From: Artemia franciscana | Lineage: Eukaryota > Arthropoda > Branchiopoda > Anostraca > Artemiidae | Direction of reading: 5' to 3' | Length of the DNA: 64,000 nucleotides | NCBI RefSeq assembly: GCF_032884065.1 | Contig: NC_088863.1 | Location: forward strand, 42,711,399 to 42,775,398 | Shown here: positions 30,943 through 58,470 of the stretch, in pieces | How positions within the stretch are numbered: the first letter of the stretch is position 1 | Layout: each line of letters begins with the position of its first letter | Position numbers and translations under genes: made by a program | Notes under the pieces: model-generated | Database searches by the model: none | What the model was told of the DNA's origin: nothing | The model's input: only the letters and a program-made list of their open reading frames with translations

Positions 30943-31242
30943 TATTAAATAAAAAAAAACAAGTTTTTTTAAATGAAAGTAAGGAGCGACATTAAAACTT
31001 AAAACGAACAGAAATTACTCCGTATATGAAAGGGGCTTTTCCTCCTCGACACCCCGCTCCTTACGCTAAAGTTTTTTATTGCTTTAAAAAGTAGAGCTAC
31101 GAGAAAGAATCAAACTTTAGCGCAAGGAGCGGGGTGTCGAGGAGGAAAAGCCCCTTTCATATACGGAGTAATTTCTGTTCGTTTTAAGTTTTAATGTCGC
31201 TCCTTACTTTCATTTAAAAAAACTTGTTTTTTTTTATTTAAT
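30943..31242. repeat. Foldback element, near-perfect palindromic copy (V2 type)
   Basis: Arms of about 130 bp begin ATTAAATAAAAAAAAACAAG and include GTAAGGAGCGACATTAAAAC. They surround a centre of roughly 35 bp (TTGCTTTAAAAAGTAGAGC). Within a 58-bp stretch compared in detail, the arms differ at one position. No ORF. The same family occurs at 21135, 32845, 58167 and 62632. Confidence 0.9.
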
Positions 31243-32705
31243 TTCTGAAAGTTTTTGAATTAATACATGTCTGATTTTGGCTCTCCGTACATAAATTATT
31301 AAAATGAAATTTGCATATTAATTATTTTTTTGGCTAAATGGCTTTCTCTTAGTTTTGATCAGACGATTTTGAGAAATAAGGGGTGGGGAAGGAGGTGTTA
31401 GTTGCCCTCCAATTTTTCGGTTACTTAAAAAGGCAACTAGATCTTTTATTTTTAACGAACGTTTTTATTAGTAAAAAAAAATACGTAACTTAAGAATTAA
31501 CTTACGTAACAAACTTTTATATTCTTATATTTTTGATTATATATATGAGGGGGTTGGTCCCCTCGTTAATACCTCGCTCTTCACACTAAATCTTGTTTTA
31601 TCCTAATTCTTTAAGAATGACCCCTGAATCAGAAAGACCGTAGAATAAATAGTTGAAATTATTTAAAAAAATTTTTGCATAAAGAGTGAAGTGTTTATCT
31701 CCTCCTAAATACCTCGCTCTTTATGCTAAAGTATTTTTAGAACCCCTCATATGCGTAATAATCTATGTTCCTTTTTAAGTTTTAATGCTTCTCCTTACTT
31801 TCAATTGAAAAAACTTTTTCATGTTTATATTTTCATTTTTTTTTTTTATAGTAATGCTAGAAAGTCCTGCGCCCTTTTCATTGAATTTCTCTTCCCCCAT
31901 GAAATATTCCTCCAAGGAAAGATCCTCCAATATACCCCCCTCCCCTGAACCCCACACCCAAACCAAAAAAATCCCCCTGATAACGTCGGTACACTTCCCA
32001 GTAACCATTACTGTATGTAAACATTGGTCAAAGTTTGTAACTTGCAGCCCCTCCCCCAGGGACTGTGGGGGGTAAGTCATCCCCAAAGACATAGTTATTA
32101 TGGTTTTCGACTATGCGGAACAAAATGGCTATCTCAAAATTTTGATACGTTGAATTTGGGAAAAAATTGAGCGTGGGAGGGGGCCTAGGTGCCCTCCAAT
32201 TTTTTTGGTCACTTAAAAAGGGCACTAGAACTTTTCATTTCCGTTAGAATGAGCCCTCTTGCAACACTCTAGGACCACTTGGTCGATACGATGACCCCTG
32301 GGAAAAAAAAAAAAAAAAAAAAAAAATAAATAAATAAACACGTACCCGTGATTTGTCTTCTGGCAAAAAATACGAAATTCCACATTTTTGTAGATTGGAC
32401 CTTGAAATTTTTGCTTTAGGGTTCTCTGATACGCTGAATGCGATGGTGTAATTTTCGTTAAGATCCTATGACTTTTAGGGGGTGTTACCCCCTATTTTCC
32501 AAAATAAGGCAAATTTTCTCAGGCTCGTAACTTTTGATGACAAAGACTAAATTTGATGAAACTTATATATTTGAAATCAGCATAAAATTCCGATTCTTTT
32601 GATATATCTTTTAGCATCGAAATTCCGTTTTTTAGAGTTTCGTTTACTATTGAGCCGGGTCGCTCCTTACTACAGTTCGTTACCACAAACTGTTTGACAA
32701 GTACC
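31243..32705 (-). repeat. Composite repeat copy 1 (modules Y, V1, X), minus orientation
   Basis: Read on the minus strand from 32705, module X begins GTTTGTGGTAACGAACTGTA. Foldback-like V1 occupies about 31540-31800 and module Y about 31243-31540. Together with the V2 foldback at 30943-31242 this is the same order as at 56735-58470 and 61240-62985. It holds an A run at 32305-32326. Small ORFs shared by the copies follow from DNA similarity and are not considered genes. Confidence 0.8.
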
Positions 32706-32844
32706 ATGGTTGCTTTTCTGAAAGTGTAGCCCATACCCCTGAGGGTCCCACAAAATGCCTTAATAATATGTTCTTCTGCTTATGATTGTCGTCATGCGTC
32801 ACTGATGATTTATTGAAACGAGTTTTCGTGGTTTCTTTACTTCA

Positions 32845-33127
32845 TTAAATAAAAAAAAAAACAAGTTCATTTTAAACTGAAAATAAGGAGCGACATTAAA
32901 ACTTAAAACAGACAGAAATTATTGCGTATATGAAAGCAACTGTCCTCTCCTCAACGCCCCGCTTTTTAAACTAAAGTTTTTTTATTGGTTTAAAAAATAG
33001 AGTTGTGAGAAATAGTCAAACTTTAACGTAAAGAGCGGGATGTTGAAGAACGGAATAATTTCTGTTCGTTTTAAGTTTTAATGCCGCTTCCTACTTTTAG
33101 TTAAAAACAAAACTTATTTTATTTAAT
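32845..33127. repeat. Foldback element, V2 type, diverged
   Basis: Left arm ATTAAATAAAAAAAAAAACA with AAGGAGCGACATTAAAACTT; right arm ends TTATTTTATTTAAT. The right arm lacks part of the sequence found in the left (the stretch matching GTATATGAAAGCAACTGTCC is reduced), so it is a damaged copy. Confidence 0.75.
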
Positions 33128-33424
33128 ATCTTAACGTTTTGAATTAATACAGGTTTTGATTTTGGCTCACCGTACATGAAAAATTAAAGCGAAATTTGCA
33201 TATTAAGTTTACTTTTTTTTTTACTAAATGGCTTTCTCAGAATTCTGATCGAAAGATTTGAAGAAAAAAGGGCGGAAGAGGGGGCCTAGCTGCCCTCCAA
33301 TTTTTCGGTTGCTTAACAGCTCATTCGATTGGAAATTAAAAGGGCCAGTGCCCTTTTTAAGAGTCAAAAGTGATCGGAGGGCAAAACCCCCCTCCCACTC
33401 CTCCCCAAACACATTCAATCAAAA
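33128..33424 (-). repeat. Module Y copy followed by one unit of the 267-bp satellite family
   Basis: Module Y (reverse) is recognisable to about 33310. Then GAAATTAAAAGGGCCAGTGC and GTCAAAAGTGATCGGAGGGC match the satellite units of 50.6-53.1 kb. This links the foldback-associated modules with the satellite. Confidence 0.6.
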
Positions 33425-34480
33425 TTTTGAAGGAAAAAAACTAAAAAAGAGTAAAAAACTAAAAAACTAAAAAGAAAAAAACTAAATAAAGAAAAAACTA
33501 AAAAAGAAAAAACAAAAAAGAAAAAACTAAAGAAAAAAGAAAAACAATAAAAAATAAAAAAAAAAAAAAAAACTAAAAAAGAAAAAAATTGAAACAGAAA
33601 AAAATAAAAACTAAAAAAGGAGAAAAAACAAAAAATAAAGAAGAAAAAGAAAACTAAAAAAAAACTAAAAAACTAAAAAAACTAAAAAAAACTAAAAAAA
33701 CTAAAAAAAATAAAAAAGAAGAAAAACTAAAAAAACTAAAAACTAAAAAACTAAAAAAAACTAAAAAAAATAAAAAAGAAGAAAAAAAGAAAAAACTAAA
33801 AAAGAAAAGAACTAAAATAGAAAAAAAACTAAAAAAAGAAAAACTAAAAAGATTTAAAAAAGAAAAATAAAAAATTAAAAAAGGAAAAATAGAAAAAACT
33901 AAAAAAGAAAAAAAACTAAAAAAAAGATAAACTAAAAAAGATAAAAAACTAAAAAATAAAACAATAAAAATAAGAAACTAAAAATAAAAAAAATTAAAAG
34001 AAAAAAGAAAAAAGACAAAAACAAAAAAAGAAAATAAAAAGAAAAAACTAAAACAAGAAAAAACTAAAAAAGAAAAAAATTAAAAAAGAAAAACTAAAAA
34101 AGAAAAAAACAAAAAAAATACAAAACTAAAAAAAGAATAACTAAAAAAATGAAAAAAGTAAAATAATAAAAACTAAAAAAAAAGAAAAAAAAAAAAAAGA
34201 AAAAAGAAAAAGCTAAAAAAGAAAAAAATTCAAAAAATAAAAATAAAAACAGAAAAGACTGACAAAAATAAAAAAGGAAAAAAATAAATATAAGAAAAAA
34301 CTAAGACTCAATGGAAATCATTAGCCATTGAAAAGAGGCTTCAGTTCTTTTACATTTTCTCTATCACTCTATAAAATCAAAAAAAAACTAAAAAGAAACT
34401 AAAAAAGAGAAAAAGAAAACAATAAAAAAAAGAAATAAAAAATTCAAAAAATAAAAATAAAGAAAAAATAGAAAATAAAA
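33425..34480. repeat. A-rich low-complexity tract built from AAAAAACTAAAAAAG words
   Basis: About 1.05 kb in which the plus strand is overwhelmingly A with isolated C, G and T in the pattern CTAAAAA and AGAAAAA. There is only one short normal stretch, near 34308-34375. Shorter tracts of the same kind are at 35395-35745 and 35905-36035 and, reversed, at 17140-17195. These are microsatellite-like expansions associated with the Helitron derivatives. Confidence 0.9.
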
Positions 34481-34597
34481 AAATTAAATCTGTATATGAC
34501 GTCATATTCAAAATGACTTCATTGCAATATAAGGAAGCTTTAATTTTAATATATGATGTTATATTCAATATGACGTCTTATTCAATATGACGTCTTA

Positions 34598-35304
<707 letters not shown>

Positions 35305-36462
35305 TCTATATATATAAAAATAAGTTGTCTGTGGATGGATGGATGGATGGGTCAGGTGACGTCACCTGAAAAAACTGGATCAGGTGACGTCAAAACTGAA
35401 AAAACTAAAAAAAGGCAAAAACTACAAAAAAAACTAAAAACTAATAAAAAAAATAAAAAAGCTAAAAAACTAAAAAAACTATAAAGGTAAAAACCAATAA
35501 AAAACTAAAAAAAAACTGAAAAAACTAAAAAAAGGCAAAAACTACAAAAAAAAAAAACTAAAAACTAATAAAAAAAGTAAAAAAGCTAAAAAACTAAAAA
35601 AACTAAAAAAACTAAAAAAGGTAAAAAACTAAAAAAAATAAAAAATAAAAAAAAACTAAAAAAAAAGGAAAAAACCGAAAAATAAGCTAAAATAAAGGTA
35701 AAAACCAATAAAAAACTAAAAAGAAAAAAAGGAAAAAACTAATAAATGACGACACTCAAAGAGAAAGCGACCAGGACAAAAGGAATGTTCGATTAGCAAT
35801 CAACAAAGCACCGGGACACAGGGAATATAAATGACGACCGGGACACAGGGACACAACTACAACGGGGACACCGGGGGAAACAGGGGGATATAAATGACGA
35901 CCGGGACAAAAAAACTAAAAAGAAAAAAAAACTAAAAACTAATAAAAAAACTAAAAAATCTAAAAATCTAAATAAGCTAAAAAAGAAAAAAAAAGGAAAA
36001 AATGAAGGAGAAAAACAAAACTAAAAAACGAATGTATATACAGACCGGGACACCGGGATACAAATGACGACCGGGACACAGGGAATATAAATGACGACCG
36101 GGACACAGGGACACAACTACAACGGGGACACCGGGGGAAACAGGGGGATGTAAATGACGACCGGGACACCGGGACAGGGAATGGTCGATTAGCAATCACC
36201 ATCAACAAAGCTCAAGGGCAATCATTAGAATCATGAGGTATAGATCTGAATACAGATTGTTTTCCCATGGACCATTATATGTTGCATGTTCAAGAGTCGG
36301 TAAACCTGACAATCTATTTATATGCAAAGACAATGGGACAGTTAAAACCATATATATATATCTATCTATATTCACAGGTGGGACATAGGGACACAACTAC
36401 AATGGCGCGTAACTATTATGGCGCGTAACGACTTACGCGCGCGGGGGGGCTTGGGGGACCGT
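35305..36462 (+). mobile_element. Non-autonomous Helitron derivative, 3' end truncated
   Basis: The 5' end TCTATATATATAAAAATAAG at 35305 is followed by GGATGGATGGATGG and a CAGGTGACGTCACCTG palindrome (35354-35369). Then come A-rich tracts, two minisatellite blocks (35747-35900, 36035-36180) and the helicase tail (36185-36345). The subterminal sequence ACTACAATGGCGCGTAACTA (36390-36462) normally leads to a hairpin and CTAG. Here it stops in the G run and fuses to an inverted helicase tail at about 36463. Confidence 0.65.
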
Positions 36463-36660
36463 CTCTGAAACATGCAACATATAATTGTACATGGGAAAAC
36501 AATCCGTATTCAGATATATACATCATGATTCTAATGATTGCCCTTGAGCTTTGTTGATGATGATTGCTAATCGACCATTCCCTGTGTCGCCGTCGTCATT
36601 TATATATCCCCCTGTGCCCCCCGACGTCCCCGTTTGTTTTGTGTCCCTGTGTCCATAGGG
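36463..36660 (-). pseudogene. Inverted Helitron helicase tail plus minisatellite
   Basis: Reverse complement of the helicase C-terminal segment (36470-36575, [10 protein letters not shown]) followed by GGGACAC units (36583-36660). It is opposite in orientation to the elements on both sides, so at least one inversion or opposite-strand insertion happened here. Confidence 0.6.
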
Positions 36661-36661
36661 A

Positions 36662-36809
36662 CATAGTGGGACATAGGGACACAACTACAATGGCGCGTAA
36701 CTATTATGGCGCGTAACGACTTACGCGCGCGGGGGGGCTTGGGGGGGGGCGCGAAGCGCCCCCACCAACTAGGTGTTGGGGTGGCGCGAAGCGCCACCCC
36801 AACAGCTAG
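36662..36809 (+). mobile_element. Helitron 3' terminus with two successive hairpin-CTAG ends
   Basis: Subterminal GCGCGTAACGACTTACGCGC (itself an 8-bp inverted repeat) leads to hairpin 1, GGGGGCGC-GAA-GCGCCCCC (36745-36763), followed by ACCAACTAG. Immediately after lies hairpin 2, TGTTGGGGTGGCGC-GAA-GCGCCACCCCAACA (36774-36804, a perfect 14-bp stem), then GCTAG (36805-36809) and T. GC hairpin plus CTRR followed by T is the defining Helitron 3' end. Confidence 0.85.
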
Positions 36810-36837
36810 TATATATATATATATATATGTATATATT

Positions 36838-36957
36838 TCTATATTCACAAGTGGGACACAGGGACACAACTACAATGGCGCTTAACTAATACGGCTCATA
36901 ACGACTTACTCACGCGTGGGGCTTGGGGAGGGCGCGAAGTGCCACACCACTAGCTAG
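36838..36957 (+). mobile_element. Degenerate Helitron 3' terminus
   Basis: Starts CTATATTCACAAGTGGGACA as the previous terminus does, has ACTACAATGGCGCTTAACTA, a weakened hairpin GGCGCGAAGTGCC, and ends CACTAGCTAGT. It shows mutations in both hairpin arms. Confidence 0.6.
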
Positions 36958-36965
36958 TTCAATAT

Positions 36966-37410
36966 AAATGTTTGCGGCTCAAAGAGAAAGTACCACTAAT
37001 CCTACGATGGCACCAAAAAGAGCACACCAGGAGGAAACACCAGAGTAACGCAAAACAAAGCTTGCGGCTCAAAGAGAAAAGGCCAGATAGGGAGTGTCCG
37101 ATTTACGTCAATGAAGACGTGTCGAGGATTCACCAGAGCAACGCGAAACCTGGCTTGGAATTGACAGAGATAGTAAAAGAAGAAGCCCTCTCGAGGAACC
37201 ACCAGAGCAACGCGAAAGCAGACTTACAGTTGAAAAAGAAAGTAAAAATGAAGGCTTGTCGAGGATTCACCAGAGCAATGCGTGACCAGGCTTGCAATTG
37301 ACAGAGGTAGCAAAAAAAAGAAAGCGTGTCGAGGAACCACCAGAGCAACACGAAACAAGACTTGCTGCTGAAAGAGAAAGTAAAAAAAGAAGGCGTGTCG
37401 ATGTATTACA
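36966..37410 (+). pseudogene. Helitron N-terminal coding repeats
   Basis: Six degenerate units, the last four 67-70 bp long (about 23 codons), with consensus near EEPPEQHETRLAAERESKKR. The sixth and best unit reads LAAERESKKRRRVDVLQKQ and is followed by VYNRLTFKYCPSGDYSLN. The first two units have insertions that lengthen them to about 90 bp. The units code for basic, alpha-helical sequence seen at the N-terminus of many arthropod Helitron proteins. Confidence 0.7.
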
Positions 37411-37495
37411 AAAGCAATATGTTTATAATCGCCTGACATTCAAGTACTGCCCTTCCGGTGATTATAGCTTGAATTGAGATGTTCAAATCGGGACT

Positions 37496-38485
37496 ATGTC
37501 TAAAATTTGTCCCTATTGCAAGGCCATGAAATTTAATGGCGAAACAAGTAAAAGTAAAAGGCAAATTTATCATAAAGCTGGCTCTCTTCTACCATTCTCA
37601 GGTGAGCATCACACATTTTTGCAGCTGTACTTCATCAGTGAAAGCAATACTGAATTGAATGCACGTTGCGGAATTTCTCCCGACGTTTAAAGAACTATCG
37701 TTTCCCGGTTGTAACATGTTTTCCTCAAGAATATAAATTCAGTGCGTCTGTTCAAAACAGCAGCCAAATTGATGCCTACTGATATGCATAAAATTGTTAT
37801 TTCCACTGACAAAACGCCTACTGATGAACATGTGCGAAGATACAATGCTCCAACTATCAACGAAGTTGCAATCGTTATGGTCGGTTAATCCATCTTGGGA
37901 CGAGATACAGCAGCTTTTACTTCCTGGACAATCGCCGGTTCATAGACATAACATTACAGCCAGTGTCTTCCTGCAAAATTTGAAATCACTGATAAATTTT
38001 ATAGCAAAATTTGAAATGTTTTGGCTAGTGCGATGCTGGTCGTAATCAGTGGAATGGCAAAAGTGAGGATTGCCACACGCACATATATTAATATGGTTAT
38101 ATAAAAAAAAAGTTTCTAATAAAATTAACGATGTGATTTCCGCTGAAATACCTGATGTCGATGTCGATAGGGGCTTACATGACATTGTGGAAAAATATGA
38201 TACATGGACCTTGCGGTGAACTTTATGAAAATTGACCGTGCATGGACAGACGAAGGTCTGTCCATGCATGGTCCTCGATTTTTAGTACCTAATACAATTA
38301 CCGGCAATGATGGATACCCTTTATATAGAAGAAGGTCTACCGAAGATGGCGGTAAATAAGACATCATAAAGTCGCGTAACCGTTACATCAAAGATGATAA
38401 CCAGTGGGTTGTTCAATATTCCCCTTTATTATTGAAAACATATAATGCACATATAAACGTGGAATATTGTAACTCCGTAAAGGCA
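37496..38485 (+). pseudogene. Helitron zinc-finger-like, Helitron-like N and Rep remnants
   Basis: MSKICPYCKAMKFNGETSKS (37496 on) gives the C-x-x-C element that precedes Rep. From 37769 the reading MPTDMHKIVISTDKTPTDEH, RRYNAPTINEVAIVMVG matches the Helitron-like N-terminal domain, cut by a stop. After a gap, GMAKVRIATRT precedes INDVISAEIPDVD. The Rep block then runs through [40 protein letters not shown] and [14 protein letters not shown]. This ends just before the Y-x-x-K-Y-V catalytic tyrosine motif, where (TA)n begins. Much of the HUH region is missing. Confidence 0.75.
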
Positions 38486-38650
<165 letters not shown>

Positions 38651-39342
38651 GTCAACAAAGGCAGCGACATGGCAGTTTTCGGCTTGCAGTCCAATTCAGT
38701 TATATTGATAAAGTTGTACAATATCAGGCTGGAAGATACATAATCCGTAATGAAGCTGTGTGGCGAATTCTTTCATTTCCGATACATGAACGAAGTCCAG
38801 TTATTGTTCACTTAGCAATATATCTACAGAATGGTCAGCGTGTTTATTTTACGGAGGCCAACGTGCAACAAAGAGCTCTGAATCCATCAGCTACTACGTT
38901 AACTGCATTCTTCGCGTTATGTCAAAATGATTCTTTTGCAAATAAACTGCTGTATTCTGAAGTGCCTACGTATTACACGTGGAATGCTAATAAGAGATCA
39001 TTTGAACGTCGAGAACGGGATGAGTCAGTCGACGGCCAAACTAGCTTCTTCAAAGAAACCACGATAGGAAGACTCTACACAAGTCACCCCAATCAAGATG
39101 AATGCTTCTTTCTCCGCCTTCTTTTGGTTAATGTACCCGGCCCGACGTCCTTTGAGCATTTGAGAACTGTAAACGGATGTATACATGACATTTACCGTAG
39201 TGAATGTCAAGCTCTGAATTTATTGGAGAACGACCAACACTGGAATAATTGCATCAATGACGCGTGCGAAACGTCAACTCCAAGTCAAATTCGTGCATTG
39301 TTCGGAATCATATTGACAACGTGCTCTACTAAAAACGGTTAG
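38651..39342 (+). pseudogene. Helitron Rep-to-helicase linker, 230-codon open stretch
   Basis: After [12 protein letters not shown] the frame shifts once and stays open to 39342: [100 protein letters not shown] and [10 protein letters not shown]. This is strongly diagnostic of the region between Rep and helicase in Helitron proteins. It ends at a stop one frameshift before the helicase. Confidence 0.85.
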
Positions 39343-40809
39343 TGAGGTCAGATATTACCTTGGGTTTTACAACAGAAATTTATAACTACAATTTAGTTAT
39401 GATTGAAGCTTTATGCTTATGTATGGCAAACAAACTTCTCAAGCATTTGGGAATGTCTTCACTTAATCGCCCTGCTGCTTTTTCTACATGTGTAGAATTG
39501 AATCATGAACAAAGTTACAACACGATTGATCTATTGAATTATATACAAGCAAATACTTCTAAGTTAACGTCTGAACAAAAAGGCATTTATGATCAGATAT
39601 TGCATTGTGTCGATAACCAAGTTCGAGAAATCTTCTTCTTGGATGCGCCGGGAGGTACTGGTAAAAAGTTTCTAATAAGATTGATTCTAGCATCAATTTG
39701 GCCCAAAAATGATATAGGGTTGGCCCTTGCGTCGTCCAGAATAGCCACAACGTTGCTGCCTGGTGGGAGAACTGCTCATTCCGCTTTGAAATTGGCTCTG
39801 AATATGCAATCTATAGAAACTCCTACGTCCAACATTTCCAAATCATTTGGGATGGGTAAAGTATTGCAGAAATGCTAACTTATTTTTTTGGACGATTGTG
39901 CGAGATGCAAAATCTCGAACAAAAAATTGCTCGTGGCTCTTGACCGATCATTGCAAGATTTGCCACGAAATTCCAAACCCTTTGGCAGAACATTAATATT
40001 GCTTGCGGGAGATTTCAGGCAAACATTACCTGTTATTCCTAGATCGACACCTGCAAACGAAATAAATGCTTGCCTAGAAAATTCTAATTTATGGGCACAC
40101 GTAAAGACATTAAAATTAACTATAAATATGCAGGTCTGATTACAAAACGATCACTCTGGTGAAATATTTTCAGATCAATTGGTGACAATAGGAAACGGAA
40201 ACCTTCCAGTTGACTCAATCTCAAGACATATAAAACTGTCTCCTGAATTCTGTAATTTGGTGACGTCAAAAAATGATTTAGTTGAAAAAGTATTTTCGAA
40301 CATTCTAACCAATTATAAAAATCATAATTAGCTAAGTGAAAGAGCGGTTCTGGCAGCCAAGAACAAAGACGTCCACGAAATCAACAATATTATTCTGACC
40401 AAGATTCGAGACCAGGAAGTTCCATTACAAGTCAGTCGACACAGTTCTGGAATAAAATGAAGCGGTTAACTATCCATCAGAATTTTTAAATCCCCTGGAT
40501 CTCCCAGGGTTTCCACCACACGTGCTACAACTAAAAACCGGCGTACCAATAATACTTTTGCGAAATATCAACCCACCAAAGCTTTGCAACAGCACAATTC
40601 CCAATTCAATTAGCATTTGCAATCACCATCAACAAAAGTCAAGGGCAATCATTAGAAAAATACGGTATAAATCTTAATACGGATTGTTTTTCCCATGGAC
40701 AATTATATGTTGCATGCTCCAGAGTCGGTAAACCGGAAAATCTGTTTATATGCACAGACAATAGGATTGCGGGGAATATTGTATATCCACAAGTTTTACG
40801 CAGTTAAAA
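39343..40809 (+). pseudogene. Helitron PIF1-type helicase remnant
   Basis: Motif I: IFFLDAPGGTGKKFLIRLIL, with the Walker A Thr replaced by Lys. Then IALA-like GLALASSRIATTLLPGGRTA. A stop near 39876 precedes the Walker B region LIFLDDCARC and LLVALDRSLQDLPRN. Motif III is LAGDFRQTLPVIPRS (40000-40045). After further stops, the last motifs [16 protein letters not shown] and FSHGQLYVACSRVGKPENLF lead to QVLRS and a stop at 40807-40809. The helicase unwinds DNA during rolling-circle transposition. Motif I substitution and several stops show it is dead. Confidence 0.85.
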
Positions 40810-41790
<981 letters not shown>

Positions 41791-41879
41791 CCTTAAAGTT
41801 TCAATATTTTAATTTTATTGAAGTTAAAAAAGTAAAAAACATTTTAAACATATTTTGCTTATGTAAATCATACAATAAA

Positions 41880-42270
41880 TGACCGAGTCAAACTCTAAAC
41901 GAGCAACAATTAACACGAGTAGGACTGGCAACCCCAATGCCTTCTCACGACCAAAACATAATTTGCACTTTTCTGAAAAAAAAAGCAATACATTTAGAAT
42001 GTACTTCACTTTTTTTTTTACTTGTTGGAAGTGTTTTTGCTAGATATATGAAGGGGTAAGTCCTCCCCCTTGCACTCTAATAACAGCCCGAGTGTCTGGT
42101 GCCCTTTTTATGAGCGATAAGGGACTGAAGGGCAAGCAGCCCTTCTCTACAGCCCATTCATTTTCCAAACCCATCCAGTCAAAATTTTGAGACAGCCATT
42201 TTGATCAGAATAGTAGAACAGTCCAGAAACTATGTCTTTAGGGATATTAGATATATCAACCCCCCAAAAT
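41880..42270. repeat. Single arm of the 42.7-kb foldback family plus a satellite-like unit
   Basis: 41880-41985 matches the foldback arm at 42885-42985 (GAGTAGGACTGGCAACCCCA versus GAGTAGGACTGATAACCCCT). 42090-42250 resembles one 267-bp satellite unit (CAGTCAAAATTTTGAGACAG). Confidence 0.55.
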
Positions 42271-43353: not shown

Positions 43354-43474
43354 AGAAAAAACGACGAGGCTTCAAACAACTTGAGATATGAAAAGCTCAA
43401 TTGGTGAACTTAAAAATGTTTCTTTTATAAATGTACACGGTATCCTTTCATTATTGTGATCATTGTAAACTTAC

Positions 43475-47487: not shown

Positions 47488-48571
47488 CTGAAAAATATAT
47501 GATATTTGCTCAGGATCTTTAATGATTCAGAAAAGGGGAAATTTAAATAAAAATCAATTATATTTCTATATACAAGTTCAGAAAACATTTTCAATTTCTT
47601 TTGTGTTTTTGTCAAGGATTTTGAAGACTAACGACCAAATCTTTCTTGATAGGGCTGGAGATTCTAAAAAAATATACTGTTAAAACTATTCAGTTTTAGC
47701 ATGCTTTCATTGACTAATTGCCAATTCAAAGAGGCAAGGACACTCGTTGCCATGTATCGTTGCCATAGTTTACTGACTTTCTGCAATAAAACAAGAGAAT
47801 AAGTATAAGTTTTATAATAATTAAAATAAGATCGATCATTTTTTACAAAAAAAGAGTTCCCAAATACAACCCTCTCAGCATCTTAGAAGTTGTTTTGCAG
47901 CCTTGCCCTTTTGTAAAAATTTCTGGGTCGAATAAGGTAGTAGTAGTTCAATGTAAGTAGTTCCCATGTAAGTAGTTCAATCTGGATTTTAGATGGTAAC
48001 CAGAGAGGTATTGAGACCAAAAGGAATTTATATATAAAGAAGTGACATAGTTGTATTAGTTACTTCAAAAACCTATCTGAAATAAACTTAGAAGAATTCT
48101 ATTTATCGCTTTTAAACTGAATAGTCTCTCCTACCTCTCTATAATTCTATCTGTCCTTAATATCGTTTATATCCTATTGAGGAACACGAGAAAATTTGAT
48201 GTGGAAAAAAAGCACGTCATTCGGGTTGGAAACTATCTATTCCTAGGAAAAAATTGCATATTCGGTTTAGTCTTTTTTCCTTCTAAAAGACAATTGAGGA
48301 AGTCAATAAGGTAAAATATAAGTTTTGACAAGCACAGGTTTTTGCCCTTGTAAGATAGAAACCGTATTTCCAAAAAAACAAACCATTGAAGAAATAAATC
48401 TTCACATTTTTCCACCTGTAATAAGTTCTTGATAATAGACATTAACATTTAAAAGCTGGCATCTTAATCTAAGAAATTCGCTTAAAAAGTTGATTTTCGT
48501 TTTTAGAAGGAATTTTTTAGCATCAAGAACAACCACAAACTTGCCTTAAATCCAATTTAAACTAAGTTTAC

Positions 48572-48736
48572 GTTGCCATGGGAACGTGGAGTGTTGCAAC
48601 CACTCCTTGTTGGATGTGCCAACAAAAGTATTGCAGGAGCAATGCTTTGATCAAGAATCAGAGGAGGAGATTTAAAAATATTATATTGACTTCGCAGCTT
48701 GTTGAATGTTAATTCGTAATGTGTCCTTAAATGTAT
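48572..48736 (-). CDS. Tentative upstream exon of the CUB/LDLa gene
   Basis: A strong acceptor (ACATTTTATTTGCTTCAG) precedes 48736, and a GTAAAC donor follows 48572. The 165-bp interval encodes 55 residues including SPPLILDQSIAPAILLLAHP and ends TPRSHGN. Phase 0 at both ends allows direct joining to ITVLSL of exon 47487. Adding this exon gives a total coding length of 2967 nt, an exact multiple of three. The protein sequence has no diagnostic motif, so support is splice signals and phase only. Earlier exons, including signal peptide and start codon, were not found. Confidence 0.4.
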
Positions 48737-50584
48737 CTGAAGCAAATAAAATGTTAGCAAATTGACACCTGTATCTCACGAACAGAAATAGCAAATAACA
48801 GTAAATTACCGGACTTTTGAAACAATGGACGGATTAAAACTTTCAATATAATCTGGTTTAACCTACTTTGTAGTACTGTTAATTTTGTTTGACGCTTCAG
48901 GTGTCCGTATGGGACGGAATACCCCAAAAAAGAAGGCAGACTAATTTTCACAAGTTTCTAATGCCTCATCTTTGAAGATGACCGCCCTCTAACAACCTAT
49001 TCTTACTTGTGTGTCCTTCTCAACGGTAGATACGGAACTGAATCTTTTGTATACTTAGATTTTTTTAATTAAAAAAAAATCCCGAGGGAAATAAAGAGCA
49101 AAGTTGAAATTTAAAACTAACAAAAAGTATTACTTCTCAGCCTATCTAATATAATCAATAAAATTACTGCAAATAAACCAGCTGGTTATATTTCCCCAAC
49201 TCTGTAGGATTGTAGAAAACTAGCTCTTTACTGAAATCACAAAAACAATATAGGAGTTTTGGTACTGGAAAAACAAACGATTTAAGGACACTTTTAGCAG
49301 TTTAAAAATAAGGTATTTTAAGACTGTTGCTCTCATTTGTTTTTGTTTGTTGTTTTTTTTCGTAAAATTTGGCATGATCGTTAATTTTAATTTCTGTTCG
49401 TTTTGGGTTGCATTTATTCTTTAATATTAATTTCTGGTTGTTTTGAGTTTGAACTCAAATAGGAATTATTTTCTACTATTTTTGAGTCAATGAAGCTCTT
49501 GACCTTTCATTGATAAACTTCTTTTTATACAAAGTTTTTTTTTAAAATAGATTCCAATTCGTTTTCATTACCAAAGCTTTTTATTGGTTTATAAAATGAA
49601 TATTTCTACGGCTTTTCACGTCTTACACTTAAGAATTAAAATACACGGATGTGATTTATTAGTTACCTATTCTACTGTATTATCATAGAATCTTATTTCT
49701 GCTTGTGTTAAGTCTAATATGGCTCTTTACTTTTCTTTGACAGACTTCGTTTATGGAAATTTTTTTTAATTGATTTCTGTCCATGTCAAAGTTTTTCATC
49801 GGTAAATATAATAAATATTTATCTAGTTTTTCATATACCTGGCGTATGAATGACACTCGCTAAATATTTTGCAACAGTTTTACCCTAATACCTTTAGTAT
49901 TTTAGAGACTTAGGATCACACATACCAACTTTTCTCAGTGACCAACCATATATATAAACGATGGGAAAATTATAAATCATGCAACACTTGCCCCTGGGCT
50001 TCGGGGTTTTTTGTTATCCTTGGAGGCATTGTTATTTGACATTTGGACTGTTTTGCGCAAGGCAGCTGTTCCAAAATTTTGGTAAATAATCACCTGATAA
50101 AGACAGTATTTAAAATCAATTTACCAACAGATGATGTAGGACATTGACCTATAACAACATATTCAGACAGCATTGAAATAATAACCAATGAATGAGTTCA
50201 ACGCCAGATTTTTGGCAAAATATAATAATTGAAAACTTATCTCATTTATGACTTTTATAGCTATCCCTTTATTATATTTTTAGACAGTGGAATTTAGGAA
50301 AAAATAAGTTAATTTTTATCATATCCTGGGATCTCAATTTTATCAGAGAAACATTACATCAAATTAGTCTGTAAATTTATTAAATGGAATATTTTTCTCT
50401 GAAAAAATTAATTATCGGGTTTAATTATATACTGTAAAAGCTATGGGTACGACCAACACAACCTTGTTTTACCCTCAGCCCCCAATGAAAAAAAATATTT
50501 CATCCAGTTTTATTTATCTATAGACTTAAGTTAGTGGAAACATCTGTAACAAGCGAAATTTATATATCTAGCTGGCCTGGGCTA
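48737..50584. other. Non-coding stretch, possible 5' part of the CUB/LDLa gene
   Basis: No exon with both splice sites, phase and a recognisable motif was found. The open interval near 48866-48951 (minus) lacks a compatible phase. A foldback-arm-like stretch lies at 49380-49560. Confidence 0.35.
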
Positions 50585-53085
50585 ATGAACAATTTATAGC
50601 AATACGGAAAATATTTTGTAATCGTCTAAAAATTTGATTAGATCCATGGGGTGTAAGGGAGGGGTGTTTGTTGCCCTCTGATCACTTTTAAATCATAAAA
50701 TAGAACTATAATTTTCTATTCCCGATGAAATAATGCTTTTTTAAAGTTTATACGACCTCCTCTTCCATAAGAACCATATATGCCCCAAGACATAGCTTAC
50801 AACCCTTGCCCCAAGATATTGGTTATTTCAACCCTTGAGGTATTTTTATATAACCTTTGGACTATTTTGGACAAAATGGCTATCTCAAAATTTTGATCGG
50901 ATAAGTATGGGGGAAAAAGAGTATGGGGGGACCGCTAGTTGCCCTCCGATCGGTTTTGACTCTTAATAACCAAACCAGAAAGTTCAATTTTCAATCAAAT
51001 GAGCCTCATCCAAAGTTTATTTGATAGCCCCTTCCATAAGAACCTTAAATGTCCCGGGGCATGACTTAAAACCATTGCCCTCCAAGTCTGGAGGGTTATG
51101 TCAACCCTTGAGGCCTTGTTAGAGGATCTTTGGACTACAGTGAATGAGAAGAGTAGGCAAAATTTTAACCGGATGCATTAGGGTGAAAAAAGAGTGTGGG
51201 GAGAGGAGACTCTTCACCCTCCAATCGGTTTTGACTCCTAAAAAGGAACTGAAACTTTCAATTACTAATCAAATAAACCTCCTCCAAAGTTTAGACCACC
51301 AGCCCTTCCATAAAAACACGATATACCTCTAAGGCATACCTTACAACCCTCATCCGGTGCTCAGGAGGGGGGGGGGGTGTCAACCTAAAAAGGATTTTTT
51401 ATATGATCTTTGGACTATTTTGAACAAAATTACCATCTCAACAGTTCAATCGGATACATTTGGGGAAAAGAGAGCATGAAGGAGCTAGTAGCCTTCCGAT
51501 CACTTTTGACTCTTGAAAAGGGAACTACAAATTTTAATTTCCAATTAAATGAACCTGCTCCAAAGTTTGTAGGACCAATTTTTCTATCAAAATTGGACAT
51601 GCCCCTGGGGCACAGCTTAAAACCCTGGTTCCTGAGCTTTGGGATAAGTGTCAACTCGGAAGTATTATTATATGATCTCTGGACTATTTTGAAAAAAATT
51701 ACAATCACAAAATTTCTATCGGAAGTATTTTAGAAAAAGAGGGCATGGGGGTGGGGCTGATGCCCTCGGATCACTTATGACCCTTTAAATGCTAAAAGAG
51801 ATCTTTCAATTTCCCATCAAATGAGCTTAATGCGAAGTTAATGTGACCATCACGTGCATAAAAACCTTATGTGCCCCAGATTAAAACTAGCAGCCCATAA
51901 ACCCAGGCTCTGCGGGGTTGTGTCAACCCTGGACGCATTATAATCTTTGGACAATTTCGAACAAAACGGCTATCTCAAAATTTCGATTGGATACATTTGG
52001 GCAAAAGAGGGCCTTGGAGTGCTCGTTCCTTTAGATCACTTTTTACTCTTTAAGAAACTAGAACTTTTAATTTCCAATCAAATGAGTCCAATCTAAAATT
52101 TGTAAGACCACACTTTGCATAAAAACCTTACTTACCTAGGGAATAGCTGAAACTACTTACCCCAGGGATCTTGGGAATCATGTCAACCCCGGAGCTGAAA
52201 TGATTTGTGGACTATTTTGAACAAAATGGATTTTTTTCAAAATTTGATCACATGCTTTAGGGGAAAATAGAGCGTGGAGGGGGAGGGACAGTTGCCCTCT
52301 GATTCTCTTAAAACTGTTGACTCTTAAAATTGGAACAAGAACTTTTAATTTCCAATCAAACGAGTCCCATCTGAAGTTTATGCGACCACTCCTTCCATAA
52401 AGACTATATAAGCCTCTGGGGCATAATTCAAAAACACTTACCTCCAGGCTCAGGGGGGGGGGGGTGTCAAGTTTGAAATCTTTGTTATTTAATCTTTGGA
52501 TTATTTTGAACGAAATGGCTATATCCAATTTTTGATCAGTATATTTGGATCAAAGAGGGCGCGAGGGATCTAGTTGTCCTCTGATAACTTTTGATTCTAA
52601 AACAGAGAAGTAGAACTTTCAATTTGCAATCAAATGGAGCCCATCTGAAGTTTACAAGACCACCCTTGGAGCATAACTTTCAACACGTGCTCTTAGGCTC
52701 TGGGGGGTTGTGTCGACCCAGGAGTTTTTGTTATATGATCTTCAAACTATTTTGAGCAAAATGACTGTCTCAAAATTTTTGTCAAATTCGTTTGGGGAAA
52801 TAGGGCGCGGGGGGATAGTTGCCTTCCAATCACTTTTCACTTAAAAAGGTACTAGAGCTTTAAATTTCCGATCAAATGAGCCACCTCCACAGTTTTTACA
52901 ACCACTCCTTCCATTAAAACCTTACATTCCCCGGAGTCTAGCGTTAAACACATACCTCCTGGCTCTAGAATGATGTTTCGACCCTGGAGTTTTGTTATCT
53001 GAAATTTGAACTAATTTGAACAAAATGGCTATCTCAAAATTCTGATCAGACGCACTGGGGAAAAAGAGGGTTTGGGGGATGTAAC
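50585..53085 (+). repeat. Tandem satellite array, unit about 267 bp, nine to ten units
   Basis: The anchor TTTGGACTATTTTGAACAAA recurs at about 50866, 51128, 51405, 51676, 51941, 52202, 52493, 52737 and 53003 (spacings 244-291). Each unit also has TTGCCCTCCGATCACTTTTG, TTTCCAATCAAATGAGCC, CCTTCCATAAAAACCTTA and a GGGGGGTTGTGTCAACCC segment. Units are 70-80% alike by eye, so the array is old. Isolated units of the family occur near 33300, 42100 and 60770. Confidence 0.85.
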
Positions 53086-53179
53086 TGTAGTTCGAACTAA
53101 TTCAACTAGGTCGATGAATTCTGAGCGGAGATAAACTATGTCAAGAGCTAAATGAAATGAAGATCAATACAGTTTGATG

Positions 53180-55430
53180 TATGAATGGGATATTCTTTGT
53201 TTTTTTAGTCGTATTTTTATGGCACTTGGTATCTGCCAAGTGACGTATAGCAATCGCAAATTATGTCGGTCGGTCTGTTGGTCCCGGTTTTGCTAGTTTA
53301 GGCACTTCTAGGTAGGCTAGGACGATGAAATTTGGATGCCGTATCAAGAAACAGACCAAATTAAATTATAAATTGTCGTTTCCCCGATCCGACCATGTGG
53401 GGGGGGGGGGAGTGGGAGGACGGTTAAATCAGAAAAATTGAAAAAATGAAGTGTTTTTAACTTACGAATGGGTGATTAGATCTTAATGAAATTTGATATT
53501 TAGAAGGATATCGTGTCTCAGAACTCTTATTTCAAACCCAGACCGGATCTGGTGACATTGGGGGGAGTCGTGGGGGGGGGGGGATGGAACCTAAAATCTT
53601 GAAAAACACTTAGAGTGGAGAGATCAGGATGAAACTTGGTGGGGAAAATAAGCAGAAGTCTTAGATACGTGATTGACATAGCCGCTCTATTTGGGGGAGT
53701 TGGGGGGTAGGGTTAATTTTCAACTTACGAAGGAGTGATTGGATCTTAATGAAATGTCATATTTAGAAGGACCTCGTAACTTACATATCTTATTTTAAAT
53801 CCCGACCGGATCCAGCATCATTGGGGGGGGGGGGGGCAAAAATCTTGGAAAACACCTTAAAGTGGAAAGATTAGGATTAAACTTGGTGGTAAGAATAAAA
53901 ACAAGTCCAAGATACGTGACTGACATATCCGGACGGGATCCGCTCCGGATCCGGTGACATTGGGGGGAGTAGGGGCGGGACCTAAAATCTTGGAAAACGC
54001 TTAGAGTGGAGGGATCGGGATGAAACTTGGTGGAAAAATAAGCAGAAGTCCTACAGAAAAAATGGGGTATTTTTAAGTTACGAAGGAGTTATCGGATCTT
54101 AATGAAATACCATATTTAGAAGGACCTCGTAACTCAGATCTCTTGGAAAACACTCGAAGCGGAGAGATCAGGATGAAACTTGGTGGAAATATTAAAACAT
54201 GTCCAAGGCACTTGAATGACATAGCCGGACCGGAACCGCTCTCTTTGGTGGAGTTGGGGGGGGGAGTAATTCTGAAAATTAGAAAAATGAGGTATTTGTA
54301 ACTTACGAACAGGTGATCAGATCTTAATGAAATTTGATATTTAGAAGAATCTTTTGCTTTATAGCTCTTATTTTAAATACCGACCGGAGCCGGTGACAGT
54401 GGGGGGAGTTGGAGATAGAAACCAGAATTCTTGGAAAATGAGAAAATTAAGGTATCTTTATCTTAGGAATGGGTGAACAGATCTTAACGAAACTCGATAT
54501 ATAGAAGGATCTTATGTCCCAGATGCTCCATTTTCAAATCGAATTGGATCCGGGGACATAGGGGATTGGAGGGGGGAAACAGAAATCTTGAAAAACGCTT
54601 AGAGCGGAGAAACCGAGATGAAACTTGATGTGAAGAATAAGAACAAGTTATAGATACGTGATTGACATGATTGGAATAGATCTATTCTCTTTAGTGGAGC
54701 TTGGGGGTGTTAGTTTTGAAAAATTAGAGAAATTGAGGTATTTTTAACTTAAGAACGGGTTACCGGATCTTGATGAAATTTGATATTTAGAAGGAACTCG
54801 TGTCTTGGAGCTCTTATTTTAAGTCCCGACTAGATCTGTTGACGTTTGGGGGAGTTGGAGGGGGAACCCGAAAATCTTGGAAAACATTTAGAGTGGAGAA
54901 ATTGGGATGAAACTTGATGGGTAGAATAAACAAATGTCGTAGATACATGATTGACTTAACTCTACTGGTTCTGCTCTCTTTGGAGGAACTAGGGGGTGGG
55001 ACTCAGTGCTTTGGCGAGTTTGGTGCTTGGGGAAACCTTGGAAAACACTTGGAGTGGAGGAATCGGGATGAAGCTTGGTGGATAGAATAAGCAAATGTCC
55101 TTTATACGTGATTGACGGATCCGTACTTGATTTGCTCTGTTTGGGGGAGTTGGGGGGAGGGGTTCAGTGATTTGGCGAGTTTGGTGCTTCTGGACGTGCT
55201 AGGACGATAAAAATTGGTAGGCATGTCAGGGAGCTGCACAAATTGACTGGATGAAGTCGTTTTCCCGTTTTGACTATCTGGGGGGGGGCTGAAGGGAGAG
55301 AAAAATTAGAAAAATTGAGGTATTTATAACTTACGAGTTGGTGATCCAATCTTAAAGAATTTTTTGTATTTAGAAGGACCTCGTGACTCAAAGCTCTTAT
55401 TTTAAATCCCGACCAGCATTAAGCCTCTGA
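53180..55430 (+). repeat. Second tandem array with two alternating modules
   Basis: Module a (TCTTAATGAAATTTGATATT then AGAAGGACCTCGT) recurs near 53490, 53750, 54105, 54330, 54770 and 55350. Module b (TGGAAAACACTTAGAGTGGA then GGATGAAACTTGGTGG) recurs near 53605, 53860, 53995, 54150, 54590, 54885 and 55050. Spacing is irregular. G runs of 8 to 13 occur in many units. Just inside the array start is the 7-bp palindrome CACTTGG-TATCTG-CCAAGTG (53223-53242). No coding function. Confidence 0.8.
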
Positions 55431-56734
55431 TTTTCCTTTAAATTAATCTATTGATTCATAGAGTTTTGCTAGAGCTCATACCATATGAGCTCTTGGCTCT
55501 TCCGGCCTCGTCACAGGTGCCATATGAGCTCTTAACTCTTGTTTTTTCTTTAATTGACTAAACGTACTTCCTTGATTTAATAGTATTGTTGTTTTTCTCA
55601 ACTGTCTATTCAATATGGTCTTAGAATTTATTTAGCAAAACGATATGTCTTGACAAAAATGCTCACCATTTTGATAGATCAAGAAAGAAAAATTCAAAAT
55701 CATTACCATGCAGGATTCCATCATTCAAGAGCAATTTAAGACCAAAAAGAAAAAAAATGTTATTGATATTCGGAGAAAAATCAGAGAACTATTAAAGAAA
55801 GACGTTTGAATCGCGGAACAAAGAATGCTTTCTGTGAGGATACAAAGGGAAGGATATAATAATGTCTTTGTGACAAAACGCAGAGATAAAAAAAAGATAT
55901 AATTATGCATATTCAATAGTCTAAACAACAACAAGCCATCGACACTGAAGACTTAATGGTTATAACGAAAGCTTTAAAATGTAGTGATGACAAATATGGT
56001 TAAAACAACGTATATATAGCCAAATTTGAAAGTTATAGCAATCGATTTTTTTTCAATAAGAAAAAGAGAGAAGAAAGAGAATAAAAATATTTTATTCTAT
56101 TGGCGTTGTGAATCGTTCCTGTGATTTTGTAAATAATACAGACATCTCCTTTGAAGAGGAACAAAAGCGACTTAATTTTTAAAAGAATAAAGAGGACGAT
56201 CCTGCTTTTTACCAAAATTTTAAATTTTTCCCGTTTTATAAGATTTGTAAAAATATGTCCAGACTCTACCCTCTACGCTTGTTACCGCATTATTTGACTG
56301 TTATGATTTTGTACATTACTCTATTTTCCATACGTGTTGCCGTATGCGTGTGTACGTTTACTATACAACCACAAAGAAACAGAGAAGTCAGTTGATTAAA
56401 ATCTCATCTCGGTTTTCTAACAGTTTTGCAAACCCGTTCTTTTCCATTCTTTTATAATTTTAAAAGATATAGTTATTTTTTTTACCAGAAATTGTACTTG
56501 AAAATATAATAATGTAATTACTTCGCAAAAGTAAGAGACAGACGTATGGAATGTAAGCACATTTTTCACCGTAGAATTTTTTAAAGTAAAATTTCTTGTT
56601 CTGTTTGATATTACCCTGTTGAATTTGAGGATATGGACTCAGTTTGTCTTTTTAAGTGCTAATGTCTTTGTATAAGAGCTGGATTTTGCCATAACTTTCG
56701 AGAGTTACAAAATACGTCACAGTGATAAGTTACG
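55431..56734. other. Non-coding stretch, no gene recognised
   Basis: AT-rich DNA with a short internal duplication (CATATGAGCTCTTGGCTCTT near 55480 and CATATGAGCTCTTAACTCTT near 55520). Short ORFs only. Confidence 0.4.
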
Positions 56735-58470
56735 CTTAGTCAAACAGTTCGTGGTAACGAACTGTAGTAAGGAGCGACCCGGCTCAATAGTAACCAAAAC
56801 TCTAAAAAATGGAATTTTGATACCAATAGCTATATCAAAAGAATCGCATTTTAATGCTGGTTTTAAATATATAAGTTTCATCAAGTTTAGTCTTACCCAT
56901 CAAAAGTTACGAGCCTGAGAAAATTTGCGTTATTTTAGAAAATAGGTGGAAACACCCCCTAAAAGTCATAGAATCTTAACGAAAATCACACCATCAGATT
57001 CAGCGTATCAGAGAACCCTATTGTAGAAGTTTCGAGCTCCTATCTACAAAAATGTGGAATTTTGCATTTTTTGCCAGAAGGCAGATCACGGATGCGTGTT
57101 TATTTGTTTTTTTGTTTTTTTGTGTTTTTGTTTTTTTTTTTTTTTCCCCAGGGGTGATCGTATCGACCCAGTTGTCCTAGAATGTTGCAAGAGGGCTCAT
57201 TCTAACGGAAATGAAAAGTTCTAGTGCCCTTTTTAAGTGACCAAAAAAATTGGAGGGCACCTAGGCCCCCTCCCACGCTAATTATTTTCCCAAAGTCAAC
57301 GGATCAAAATTCTGAGATAGCCATTTTATTCAGCGTTGTCGAAAAACCTTATAAGTATGTCTTTGGGGACGACTTACTCCCCCACAGTCCCCGTGGGAGG
57401 GGCAACAAGTTACAAACTTTGACCTGTGCTTACATATAGTATTGGTTATTGGGAAGTAAACAGGCGTTTTCAGGAGGATTTTTTTGGTTGGGGGGAGGGG
57501 TTGAGAAGAGGGGGATATGCTGGGGGAAGTTTCCATCGAGAATTTGTCATGGGAGAAGAAAACTTCCATGAAGGGAGATCAGGATTTACTAGCATTATTT
57601 AAAAAAAAATTAAAAAATAAATGTGAAAAAGCTTTTTCAGCTGGAAGTAAGGAACAGCAATAAAACTTAAAACAAACAGAAATTATTACCCATATAAGGG
57701 GCTCGCCTCCTTATGATACCTAGCTCTTTACACTAAAGTATTTTTAGTAATTTCAACTATTTATTCTACGGCTTTTGTGATTCAGGGGTCATTCTTAATG
57801 AATTGGGATAAAATTTAAGCTTTAGTGTAAAGAGCGAGGTACTGACGATGGGGCGAATCCCCTCATATATGTAATAAAAACATGAGAATACAAAAGTTCT
57901 TTACGTAAGCTAATTTATAAGTTACGTAAACCTTTTACCAATAAAAAGATTCGTAAAAAATTAAAAGTTCTAGTTGCCTTTTTAATTAACCAAAAAATTG
58001 GAGGGCAACTAGGCTTCGCCCCCGCTCTTTTTTTCTCAAAATCATTCGATCAAAATTATGAGAAAGCCATTTAGCCCCCCCCCAAAAAAAAATATGCAAA
58101 TTTCGTTTTGATTATTCCTCTGCGGAGAGCCAAAATCAAAACATGCATTGATTCAAAAACGTTCAGAAATTAAATAAAAAAAACGAGTTTTTTTAACTGA
58201 AAGTAAGGAGCGACATTAAAACTTAAAACGAACAGAAATTACTTCGTATATGAAAGAGGCTGCTTCCTCATCAACGCCCTGCTCTTTACGCTAAAGTTTT
58301 TTACTGTTTTAAAAAGAAGAATTGAGAGAAAGAGTCAAACTTTAGCGTAAAGAGCGGGGCGTTGATGAGGAAGCAGCCTCTTTCATATACGAAGTAATTT
58401 CTGTGCGTTTTAAGTTTTAATGTCGCTCCTTACTTTCAGTTAAAAAAACTCGTTTTTTTTATTTAATTTT
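56735..58470 (+). repeat. Composite repeat copy 2 (X-V1-Y-V2)
   Basis: Module X (56735-57640) starts TCAAACAGTTCGTGGTAACG and includes TGTCCTAGAATGTTGCAAGA. The V1 foldback (57640-57885) has GTAAGGAACAGCAATAAAAC. Module Y (57885-58166) has AAAAATTGGAGGGCAACTAG. The V2 foldback spans 58167-58470. The order is the same as in copies 1 and 3, so the four parts behave as a unit. Pieces of it (Y, V2) also occur alone. Confidence 0.85.
58167..58470. repeat. Foldback element V2, near-perfect palindrome
   Basis: Arms start AAATAAAAAAAACGAG and carry GTAAGGAGCGACATTAAAAC. The 58-bp segment compared in detail differs between arms at one position but from the 30943 copy at about ten. The centre is about 30 bp around TTTTAAAAAGAAGAATTG. 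Confidence 0.9.

Follow-up and report, generated by a model that had tools for sequence, protein, structure and literature searches.

Foldback-ended elements in the window

The window is a 64,000-nt stretch of the Artemia franciscana genome (contig NC_088863.1, positions 42,711,399 to 42,775,398), in which all positions below are numbered. It contains two long foldbacks, at 30943 and 58167, each forming the 3' end of an element of ~1.75 kb that lacks a long reading frame. The two copies are oppositely oriented in the window and, measured against the element body, their loops are inverted, two points absent from an earlier note on this DNA. The features are as follows.

21115..21455, strand not assigned: old, decayed foldback with arms 75-76% to consensus; neither its body side nor the orientation of its loop can be recognised
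30945..32697, minus strand: complete ~1.75 kb element of the 30943 subfamily (c40), loop 'flip', 5' end at 32697
30944..31242, minus strand: 3'-terminal foldback of the 30943 copy, arms 30944-31074 and 31112-31242, 37 nt between
31747..31828, minus strand: arm-like segment inside the body of the 30943 copy, decayed
32654..32697, minus strand: 5' end of the 30943 copy, with TC start, short 5' hairpin and 13-bp AGTAAGGAGCGAC, read from the sequence
32844..33316, minus strand: decayed copy of which only the 3' part is present, loop 'flip' (element match and arm comparison)
56740..58466, plus strand: complete copy of the 58167 subfamily (c58), loop 'flop' (5'-end match 56740-56890, element match 56739-58467)
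58167..58469, plus strand: 3'-terminal foldback of the 58167 copy, arms 58167-58299 and 58337-58469, 37 nt between
61236..62986, plus strand: third copy, 'flop', loop duplicated (about 92-94 nt), arms differ at 10/124

Inverted-repeat detection gave arms of 131 nt (99% alike) for the 30943 foldback and of 133 nt (98% alike) for the 58167 foldback. Folded as DNA, the former has an energy of -155.8 kcal/mol, whereas 100 shuffled sequences average -29.9 (z -33.9). The partial copy provides a fifth, decayed foldback at 32844-33127, with arms that differ at 19 of 87 compared positions. Counterparts of the internal arm-like segment occur in other copies at 57607-57744 and 62071-62206.

The element has hairpins at both termini: a short one at the 5' end (ACAGTTCG..CGAACTGT), which carries TCAAACAG, and the ~130-bp foldback at the 3' end, whose stem extends to the terminus. 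The 13-bp AGTAAGGAGCGAC, at 26 nt from the 5' terminus, has an inverted counterpart about 33 nt from the 3' terminus; together they form an asymmetric inverted repeat. A 39-base 5' end typical of most copies has 16,730 exact matches in the genome; the 30943 copy is one base off. In all 40 fetched c40 copies the element body adjoins the foldback, and the 37 with both ends located all begin with TC and end in TTTAA, not CTRR, with T as the next base. The base preceding TC is A in 27 of the 37, T in 7 and G in 3; a separate count gave A in 26/37 (p 2.9e-6), and since it is found in only 26-27 copies the preference is not absolute. There was no clear target-site duplication among these 37 copies, in which 3-nt flank repeats numbered 2 and 3 against 2.1 expected, 4-nt repeats 1 and 0 against 0.5, and repeats of 5-7 nt none. 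When the joined flanks of the 37 copies were searched for an empty site, with the 30943 element as reference, no match reached the set score.

Palindromic subfamilies and the arm tree

The earlier note had reported that the arms are alike within a copy and unlike between copies, most of the between-copy differences being present in both arms, and comparison of the full arms bears this out. Differences within a copy amount to 1/131 (30943) and 2/133 (58167), whereas between the two copies the body-side arms differ at 11/130 positions and the distal arms at 10/130. Nine of the differing positions are altered in both arms; those without a partner in the other arm are arm positions 63, 111 and 119. 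The foldbacks at 21135 and 62632 had been described as having lost their symmetry, which is largely so for the first (30/119 positions differ), but the second is still symmetric (10/124; 122-nt arms at 90% in inverted-repeat detection).

Two sources of this pattern had been proposed: conversion or hairpin-templated synthesis between arms, or several palindromic masters. The masters are clearly present. Among first-look candidates matching the 30943 foldback, the best 40 of 2,113 are 97-100% identical, and among those matching the 58167 foldback the best 40 of 610 are 95-100% identical (self included in both). The two copies are members of different young subfamilies, and because each has such a large near-identical subfamily, the headline contrast within and between copies is explained by subfamilies.

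The expectation that the arms of one copy should be sisters in an arm tree failed. In a tree of both arms from 107 copies, from which 6 of 113 foldbacks had been dropped beforehand as duplicates or tandem-identical, sister arms occurred in only 6 copies; 196 of 214 arms were closer to an arm of another copy than to their own partner, with 13 ties and 5 closer to their own. On this measure homogenisation copy by copy is not supported. The opposite pattern, left arms clustering with left and right with right, was not strict either: cherries between copies were left-left in 13 cases, right-right in 12 and mixed in 11, labels that are comparable only within a subfamily because they are set by loop orientation and not by body side. 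A few subfamilies do not, however, explain all of the covariation, since paired polymorphisms and arm covariation persist inside samples.

Arm covariation and loop orientation

Covariation was counted at 99 pairs in each of three samples, c40 (40 copies), c58 (40) and c61 (22), omitting the outermost ~32 bp because of homopolymer and indel alignment trouble. The samples are the best-scoring matches to three queries rather than random ones, and c58 and c61 have some polymorphisms in common and are therefore not independent. More than 40 bp from the loop, a boundary picked after inspection of the data, the within-copy mismatch in c40, c58 and c61 was.0030,.0096 and.0227, against.0047,.0295 and.0380 after shuffling, and 0/2000 shuffles reached the observed covariation in each of the three samples. 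Within 40 bp of the loop there was no covariation (.0293,.0410 and.0373, against.0292,.0410 and.0367).

Alleles common to at least three copies follow the same division: six are paired, all more than 40 bp from the loop, and six unpaired, five of them within 40 bp (Fisher.015;.08 with the boundary at 45 or 50 bp). One unpaired allele common to three copies lies 67 bp from the loop. Alleles found in exactly two copies, which fall outside this test, comprise four unpaired, two of them lying 71 and 80 bp away from the loop, and none paired. In the outermost ~32 bp, shared alleles are paired at c40 pair 28 and c58 pairs 18 and 27, and unpaired at c58 pairs 9, 17 and 21 and c61 pairs 31-35. Most private changes affect a single arm: among the 101 states found once, 93 are unpaired (53 beyond and 40 within 40 bp) and eight paired, all beyond 40 bp (Fisher.02). 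A stricter count, which accepts a base only if no other copy of the sample has it on that arm, left 82 one-armed and four paired private changes, the latter all in the outer arms. Loop-proximal pairs transmit their mismatches, as in c58 (TG 38, TA 2) and c61 (CG 14, CA 7, AG 1). Over wider distances the inner arms also co-vary (.1001 against.1250, 0/2000 shuffles, in 27 diverse copies), and c40 and its flop relative L068 show paired differences at the inner positions 104, 107 and 116; the polarity therefore holds only on a short time scale. Taken with the failed arm tree, the covariation inside samples indicates that homogenisation apparently occurs in source lineages and not generally in inserted copies.

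The loop occurs in both orientations, with 6,094 exact flop and 2,173 exact flip patterns genome-wide and none for the reversed-pattern controls. Among fetched copies, whose top-scoring samples are biased toward the loop orientation of the query, flip was found in 40/40 c40 main foldbacks and flop in 39/39 c58 and 20/20 c61 foldbacks. Such uniformity, though seen in orientation-biased samples, disfavours a regular flip/flop at every transposition. A genome-wide count restricted to flop loops found the c40-like signature 44 times. Flip loops stand at 2-3 places of the body tree, so that there were apparently 2-3 independent switches.

Our preferred account, held tentatively and with close to even confidence, is that the outer arms undergo polar, hairpin-templated homogenisation in source lineages, with rare loop inversion, while inserted copies decay. 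The arms of a copy would match because every copy traces back to a source element that was palindromic. The outer ~90 bp of both arms would repeatedly be restored to identity in source lineages, most likely while the transposing element is single-stranded: the 3' arm would fold onto the 5' arm, lose part of its free 3' end to trimming and regain it by copying from the 5' arm. Correction beginning with such trimming and re-copying would therefore proceed from the terminus inward and seldom reach the last ~40 bp before the loop. The tip would rarely be inverted relative to the body, via exchange between the arms or a rare hairpin transfer, and after insertion the arms would mutate independently of each other.

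A credible but rather less probable reading dispenses with arm-to-arm copying: there would be subfamilies only, descended from a few palindromic masters, and paired changes would be ordinary compensatory substitutions under selection for a perfect hairpin in transposition. The large near-identical subfamilies, which account for most of the 30943-58167 contrast, agree with this, as do an arm tree mostly without sister arms and the shared unpaired alleles in the outer arms; the paired states seen once may also come from unsampled sub-subfamilies. Yet the commonest distal paired polymorphism, in c58, is nearly without intermediates (AT 20, CG 19, mismatched AG 1), and the eight paired states seen once (four on the stricter count) compare with 0.03, 0.40 and 0.37 complementary double changes expected by chance per sample.

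Gene conversion in the chromosome, acting between the two arms of an inserted copy, seems unlikely. Arm-to-arm conversion has been proposed for the long terminal inverted repeats of Galileo (PMC3573991). The eight paired states found in one copy only (four on the stricter count) speak for it, as does loop inversion, which a crossover between inverted arms is expected to produce. It fits poorly with the G-T mismatch at pair 120/180 retained in 40/40 c40 copies, with the one-armed majority of states seen once and with the uniform loop orientation of the fetched c40, c58 and c61 copies; within-copy arm identity alone is not evidence for it. In parvovirus-like rolling-hairpin replication the 3' foldback would prime the second strand and be regularly transferred and inverted. 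This mode would suit a ~130-bp hairpin that includes the terminus and tips in both orientations, but is very improbable because regular transfer, as in AAV (PMC1131931), would leave flip and flop mixed within a lineage, whereas c40 and c58 are uniform, albeit in samples biased to the query's orientation.

Relationship to known elements

The element is closest to non-autonomous Helitron2-type elements, and a rolling-circle machinery presumably lies behind it. We identified no autonomous partner with the element's ends and saw no transposition intermediate; the 150 Helitron_like_N matches scored, out of 7,436 candidates, include open frames of up to 2,091 aa. A Rep/helicase scan of six of the 9 listed frames in the window (the remaining three all have long TA runs) gave a sole helicase match, at 39333-39875, which is probably not the partner, since its neighbourhood contains what reads as a CTAG-type end.

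To our knowledge, how Helitron-type elements handle their 3' hairpin in transposition is still under investigation. Here the arms of thousands of natural copies would preserve a record of the re-copied portion of the hairpin and of the frequency of tip inversion. Sequence alone can thus serve to test for a hairpin intermediate in single-stranded form, and for its repair, before an assay does. A more speculative proposal, which we consider doubtful, is that the long 3' hairpin of a Helitron2-like transposon is self-proofread at each transposition, new synthesis of the free 3' arm on the 5' arm, with inward polarity, maintaining a palindromic terminus, and its tip being occasionally inverted by hairpin transfer; if true, this would be a cellular transposon with the flip/flop and terminal correction known from parvoviral ends.

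Angel-type palindromic MITEs of fish are also hairpin-forming repeats, for which hairpin-based amplification has been proposed; in these the whole element is palindromic, whereas the Artemia element is so at one end only. AAV and parvovirus ends likewise have a terminal palindrome with an inner part in flip and flop orientation (PMC1131931), but in Artemia the orientation looks inherited by whole subfamilies and no viral gene was seen. Galileo and other Foldback elements share arms 98-100% alike within a copy and different between subfamilies, for which the Galileo authors propose exchange and conversion between inverted arms (PMC3573991). Their long inverted repeats form both ends of the element and come with target duplication; the Artemia element has both arms at one end, around a 37-nt loop, and no clear duplication of that kind.

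With Helraiser and canonical Helitron1 (PMC4778049) the element shares the 5'-TC, insertion mostly between host A and T (A not being absolute), the absence of target duplication and a 3' hairpin. It differs in having an inverted repeat and a 5' hairpin, and in place of CTRR-3' with a short hairpin 10-12 nt upstream (about 11 nt inside in Helraiser) it ends in TTTAA in the 37 located copies and has a far longer, terminal hairpin. The likeness is greatest to Helitron2/Helentron and HINE/DINE-1 elements, which (PMC5148889, PMC4067079) have an asymmetric or subterminal inverted repeat of ~12-15 bp near both ends, as AGTAAGGAGCGAC is here, hairpins at both termini, no target duplication, many copies and, as here, no coding capacity seen. 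Helitron2/Helentron elements are described with a short 3' hairpin and insertion at TT or T-rich sites, whereas the Artemia element has a terminal stem of ~130 bp, mostly A before and T after it in the 37 copies, a loop in two orientations and no protein linked to its ends.

Foldbacks of the window and the element that carries them

The two foldbacks described in the earlier note, at window positions 30943 and 58167, were confirmed, and their arms exceed the length compared there, at 131 and 133 nt respectively, with 37 nt between the arms. The claim that arms match within each copy and differ between copies also held: 1 of 131 positions differs within the 30943 foldback and 2 of 133 within that at 58167, while the two copies differ from each other at 11/130 and 10/130 arm positions, nine of them altered in both arms. 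The folding energy of the 30943 foldback strand was -155.8 kcal/mol; compared with 100 shuffles, this gives a z of -33.9. Further foldbacks, by window start, are:

62632: foldback with a duplicated loop, arms differing at 10/124
32844: decayed foldback
21135: old foldback

Among fetched genomic copies of the 62632 type (L041–L051), several have loops of 81–97 nt; the two loops that were read, in the window copy and L044, are two tandem loop copies, and their duplication units seem to differ. A large inverted repeat occupies window 16016–18258, with arms measuring 501 nt (95%) and 266 nt (94%), and holds pieces that resemble the element body. Long (TA)n runs at 35101–35292, 38510–38649 and 41347–41790 were read as near-perfect palindromes.

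The 40 genomic copies scored against the 30943 foldback (query copy included) share the body that adjoins it, and the foldback forms the 3' end of an element 1,630–1,763 bp long (37 copies measured). The element starts with TCAAACAG, accompanied by a short hairpin; AGTAAGGAGCGAC lies close to the 5' end and recurs inverted ~33 nt from the 3' end. It ends in TTTAA, followed by T, in 37/40 copies (those with both ends located), and is preceded by A in 27 of these 37 (26/37 in another count). Among the same 37 copies flank repeats were near expectation (3 nt, 2 and 3 vs 2.1; 4 nt, 1 and 0 vs 0.5), with none of 5–7 nt. Exact matches to a 39-base 5' end number 16,730 genome-wide, compared with 8,267 exact foldback patterns, and this 5' end may serve several element families. 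An older relative at window 59657–60180 has the 5' end (69%) and the front part; no match to the 3' foldback was found beside it. Of 7,436 candidates in the genome, 150 Helitron_like_N matches were scored. The excerpted text of PMC11492255 assigns 8.81% of the Artemia franciscana genome to Helitrons. Three foldback copies on contig C19 of genome G000 (L068, L069 and L070, at ~26736058, 26744758 and 26753454) have identical match scores, which together with their 8.7 kb spacing suggests a tandem array of a unit containing the element.

Other features of the window are:

36775–40830: decayed canonical Helitron, with a PIF1 helicase match at 39333–39875
near 36775–36810: GGCGCGAAGCGCC hairpin of that Helitron with a CTAG-type end, as read
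34870–35100, 36165–36340 and, inverted, 36458–36612: recurring helicase-tail-like fragments
26553–28709, minus strand: open frame of 719 aa with a DUF7805 match
9897–10832 and 22867–24149: reverse transcriptase matches, the second barely above cut-off; probably LINE remnants

Subfamilies and loop orientation

Each query gave a set of closely matching copies, query copy included: the best 40 of 2,113 first-look candidates scored for 30943 (97–100% identity), the best 40 of 610 for 58167 (95–100%) and the best 40 of 3,145 for a third query (93–100%). The contrast noted earlier is therefore mainly that of two palindromic subfamilies within one window.

The 30943 and 58167 subfamilies carry loops that, relative to the body, are reverse complements of each other. 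All 40 main foldbacks of the 30943 sample (c40) carry one orientation, flip; the opposite, flop, is found in 39/39 fetched copies of the 58167 sample (c58) and its window copy, in 20/20 fetched copies of the third sample (c61) and in two additional foldbacks within c40 loci. The 62632 set is flop in 27/29 and flip in 2/29, one of the latter (the first foldback of L055) having too little body to judge. Exact body-to-loop patterns numbered 2,173 flip and 6,094 flop genome-wide (reversed-pattern controls, 0), a rough ratio given that the search patterns are unequal in length and that a foldback flanked on either side by body-like sequence may count twice (one such pair is listed, on C1 near 5,467,600).

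A midpoint-rooted tree built from the bodies of 71 copies places the c40 flip clade, with 41 members and support 57, next to the flop relatives L068 and L048 (85, 89); the window copy at 32844 and L044 are separate flips (node support 68–84), and a fourth flip (L032 at 3112) matches weakly and has a very long branch. This tree suggests that loop orientation switched two or three times. A c40-like arm signature accompanies a flop loop in 44 copies, and may not be exclusive to c40.

Changes in one arm and in both

The expectation that arms of one copy would be sisters failed: in a tree that included both arms from each of 107 copies (113 with 6 duplicates removed), sister arms were found in 6 copies only, and the own partner was closest for 5/214 arms, with 13 ties. 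Over whole arms, the 40 copies of c40 contain 6 paired changes (in both arms), three being the same one, and 24 one-armed changes; c58 contains 36 paired cells and 158 one-armed ones, the second figure being raised by one polymorphic pair and by columns that fall outside the element. A count over 99 pairs, omitting the outermost ~32 bp, covered samples of 40, 40 and 22 copies, the last comprising 20 of the 40 third-query matches and two from earlier loci.

Base states in the three samples (99 pairs)
Seen once: 8 paired, 93 unpaired
In two copies: 0 paired, 4 unpaired
In three or more copies: 6 paired, 6 unpaired

All paired states lay >40 bp from the loop, a threshold set post hoc, the Fisher value of.015 becoming.08 at 45 and 50 bp. 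The omitted outermost ~32 bp hold both paired and unpaired shared alleles. Compared with 3' arms shuffled among copies, the outer arms co-varied in all three samples and the inner 40 bp in none. Among 27 diverse copies both parts co-vary, and thus the inner part too is matched over longer times.

Origin of arm similarity and comparison with known systems

The explanation that we tentatively favour, at a little under an even chance, is that arms are corrected in source lineages from the terminus inward: the hairpin base would be re-copied and the tip spared, with the tip rarely inverted. We infer that correction would act on single-stranded intermediates of rolling-circle transposition; the 3' hairpin of Helraiser serves as a terminator and its insertions are mostly at A^T (PMC4778049, in excerpt). 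That subfamilies alone explain the pattern is unlikely, if far from negligible. It accords with a stricter count of bases unique in their sample, in which only the outer arms held paired changes, 4 in number, against 82 confined to one arm (42 in the outer part, 40 in the inner), and with the occurrence of unpaired shared alleles in outer arms; these two observations slightly lower the weight of source-lineage correction and raise that of subfamilies alone. Conversion after insertion fits poorly with a mismatch retained in 40/40 copies and with private changes that are mostly one-armed, as does regular hairpin transfer with the uniform orientation within subfamily samples.

Searches of one open-access library, covering mainly listings and the starts of abstracts, turned up no Helitron described as having a ~130-bp terminal foldback, which does not imply that none exists. 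In the excerpted sources, Helitron2 is characterised by asymmetric inverted repeats and a hairpin at each terminus (PMC5148889), features also found here, and HINE/DINE-1 ends are similar to those of Helitron2 (PMC4067079). Galileo is described as having long inverted repeats that are identical within a copy, along with subfamilies, and conversion was proposed there (PMC3573991); ends in flip and flop are known from AAV (PMC1131931).
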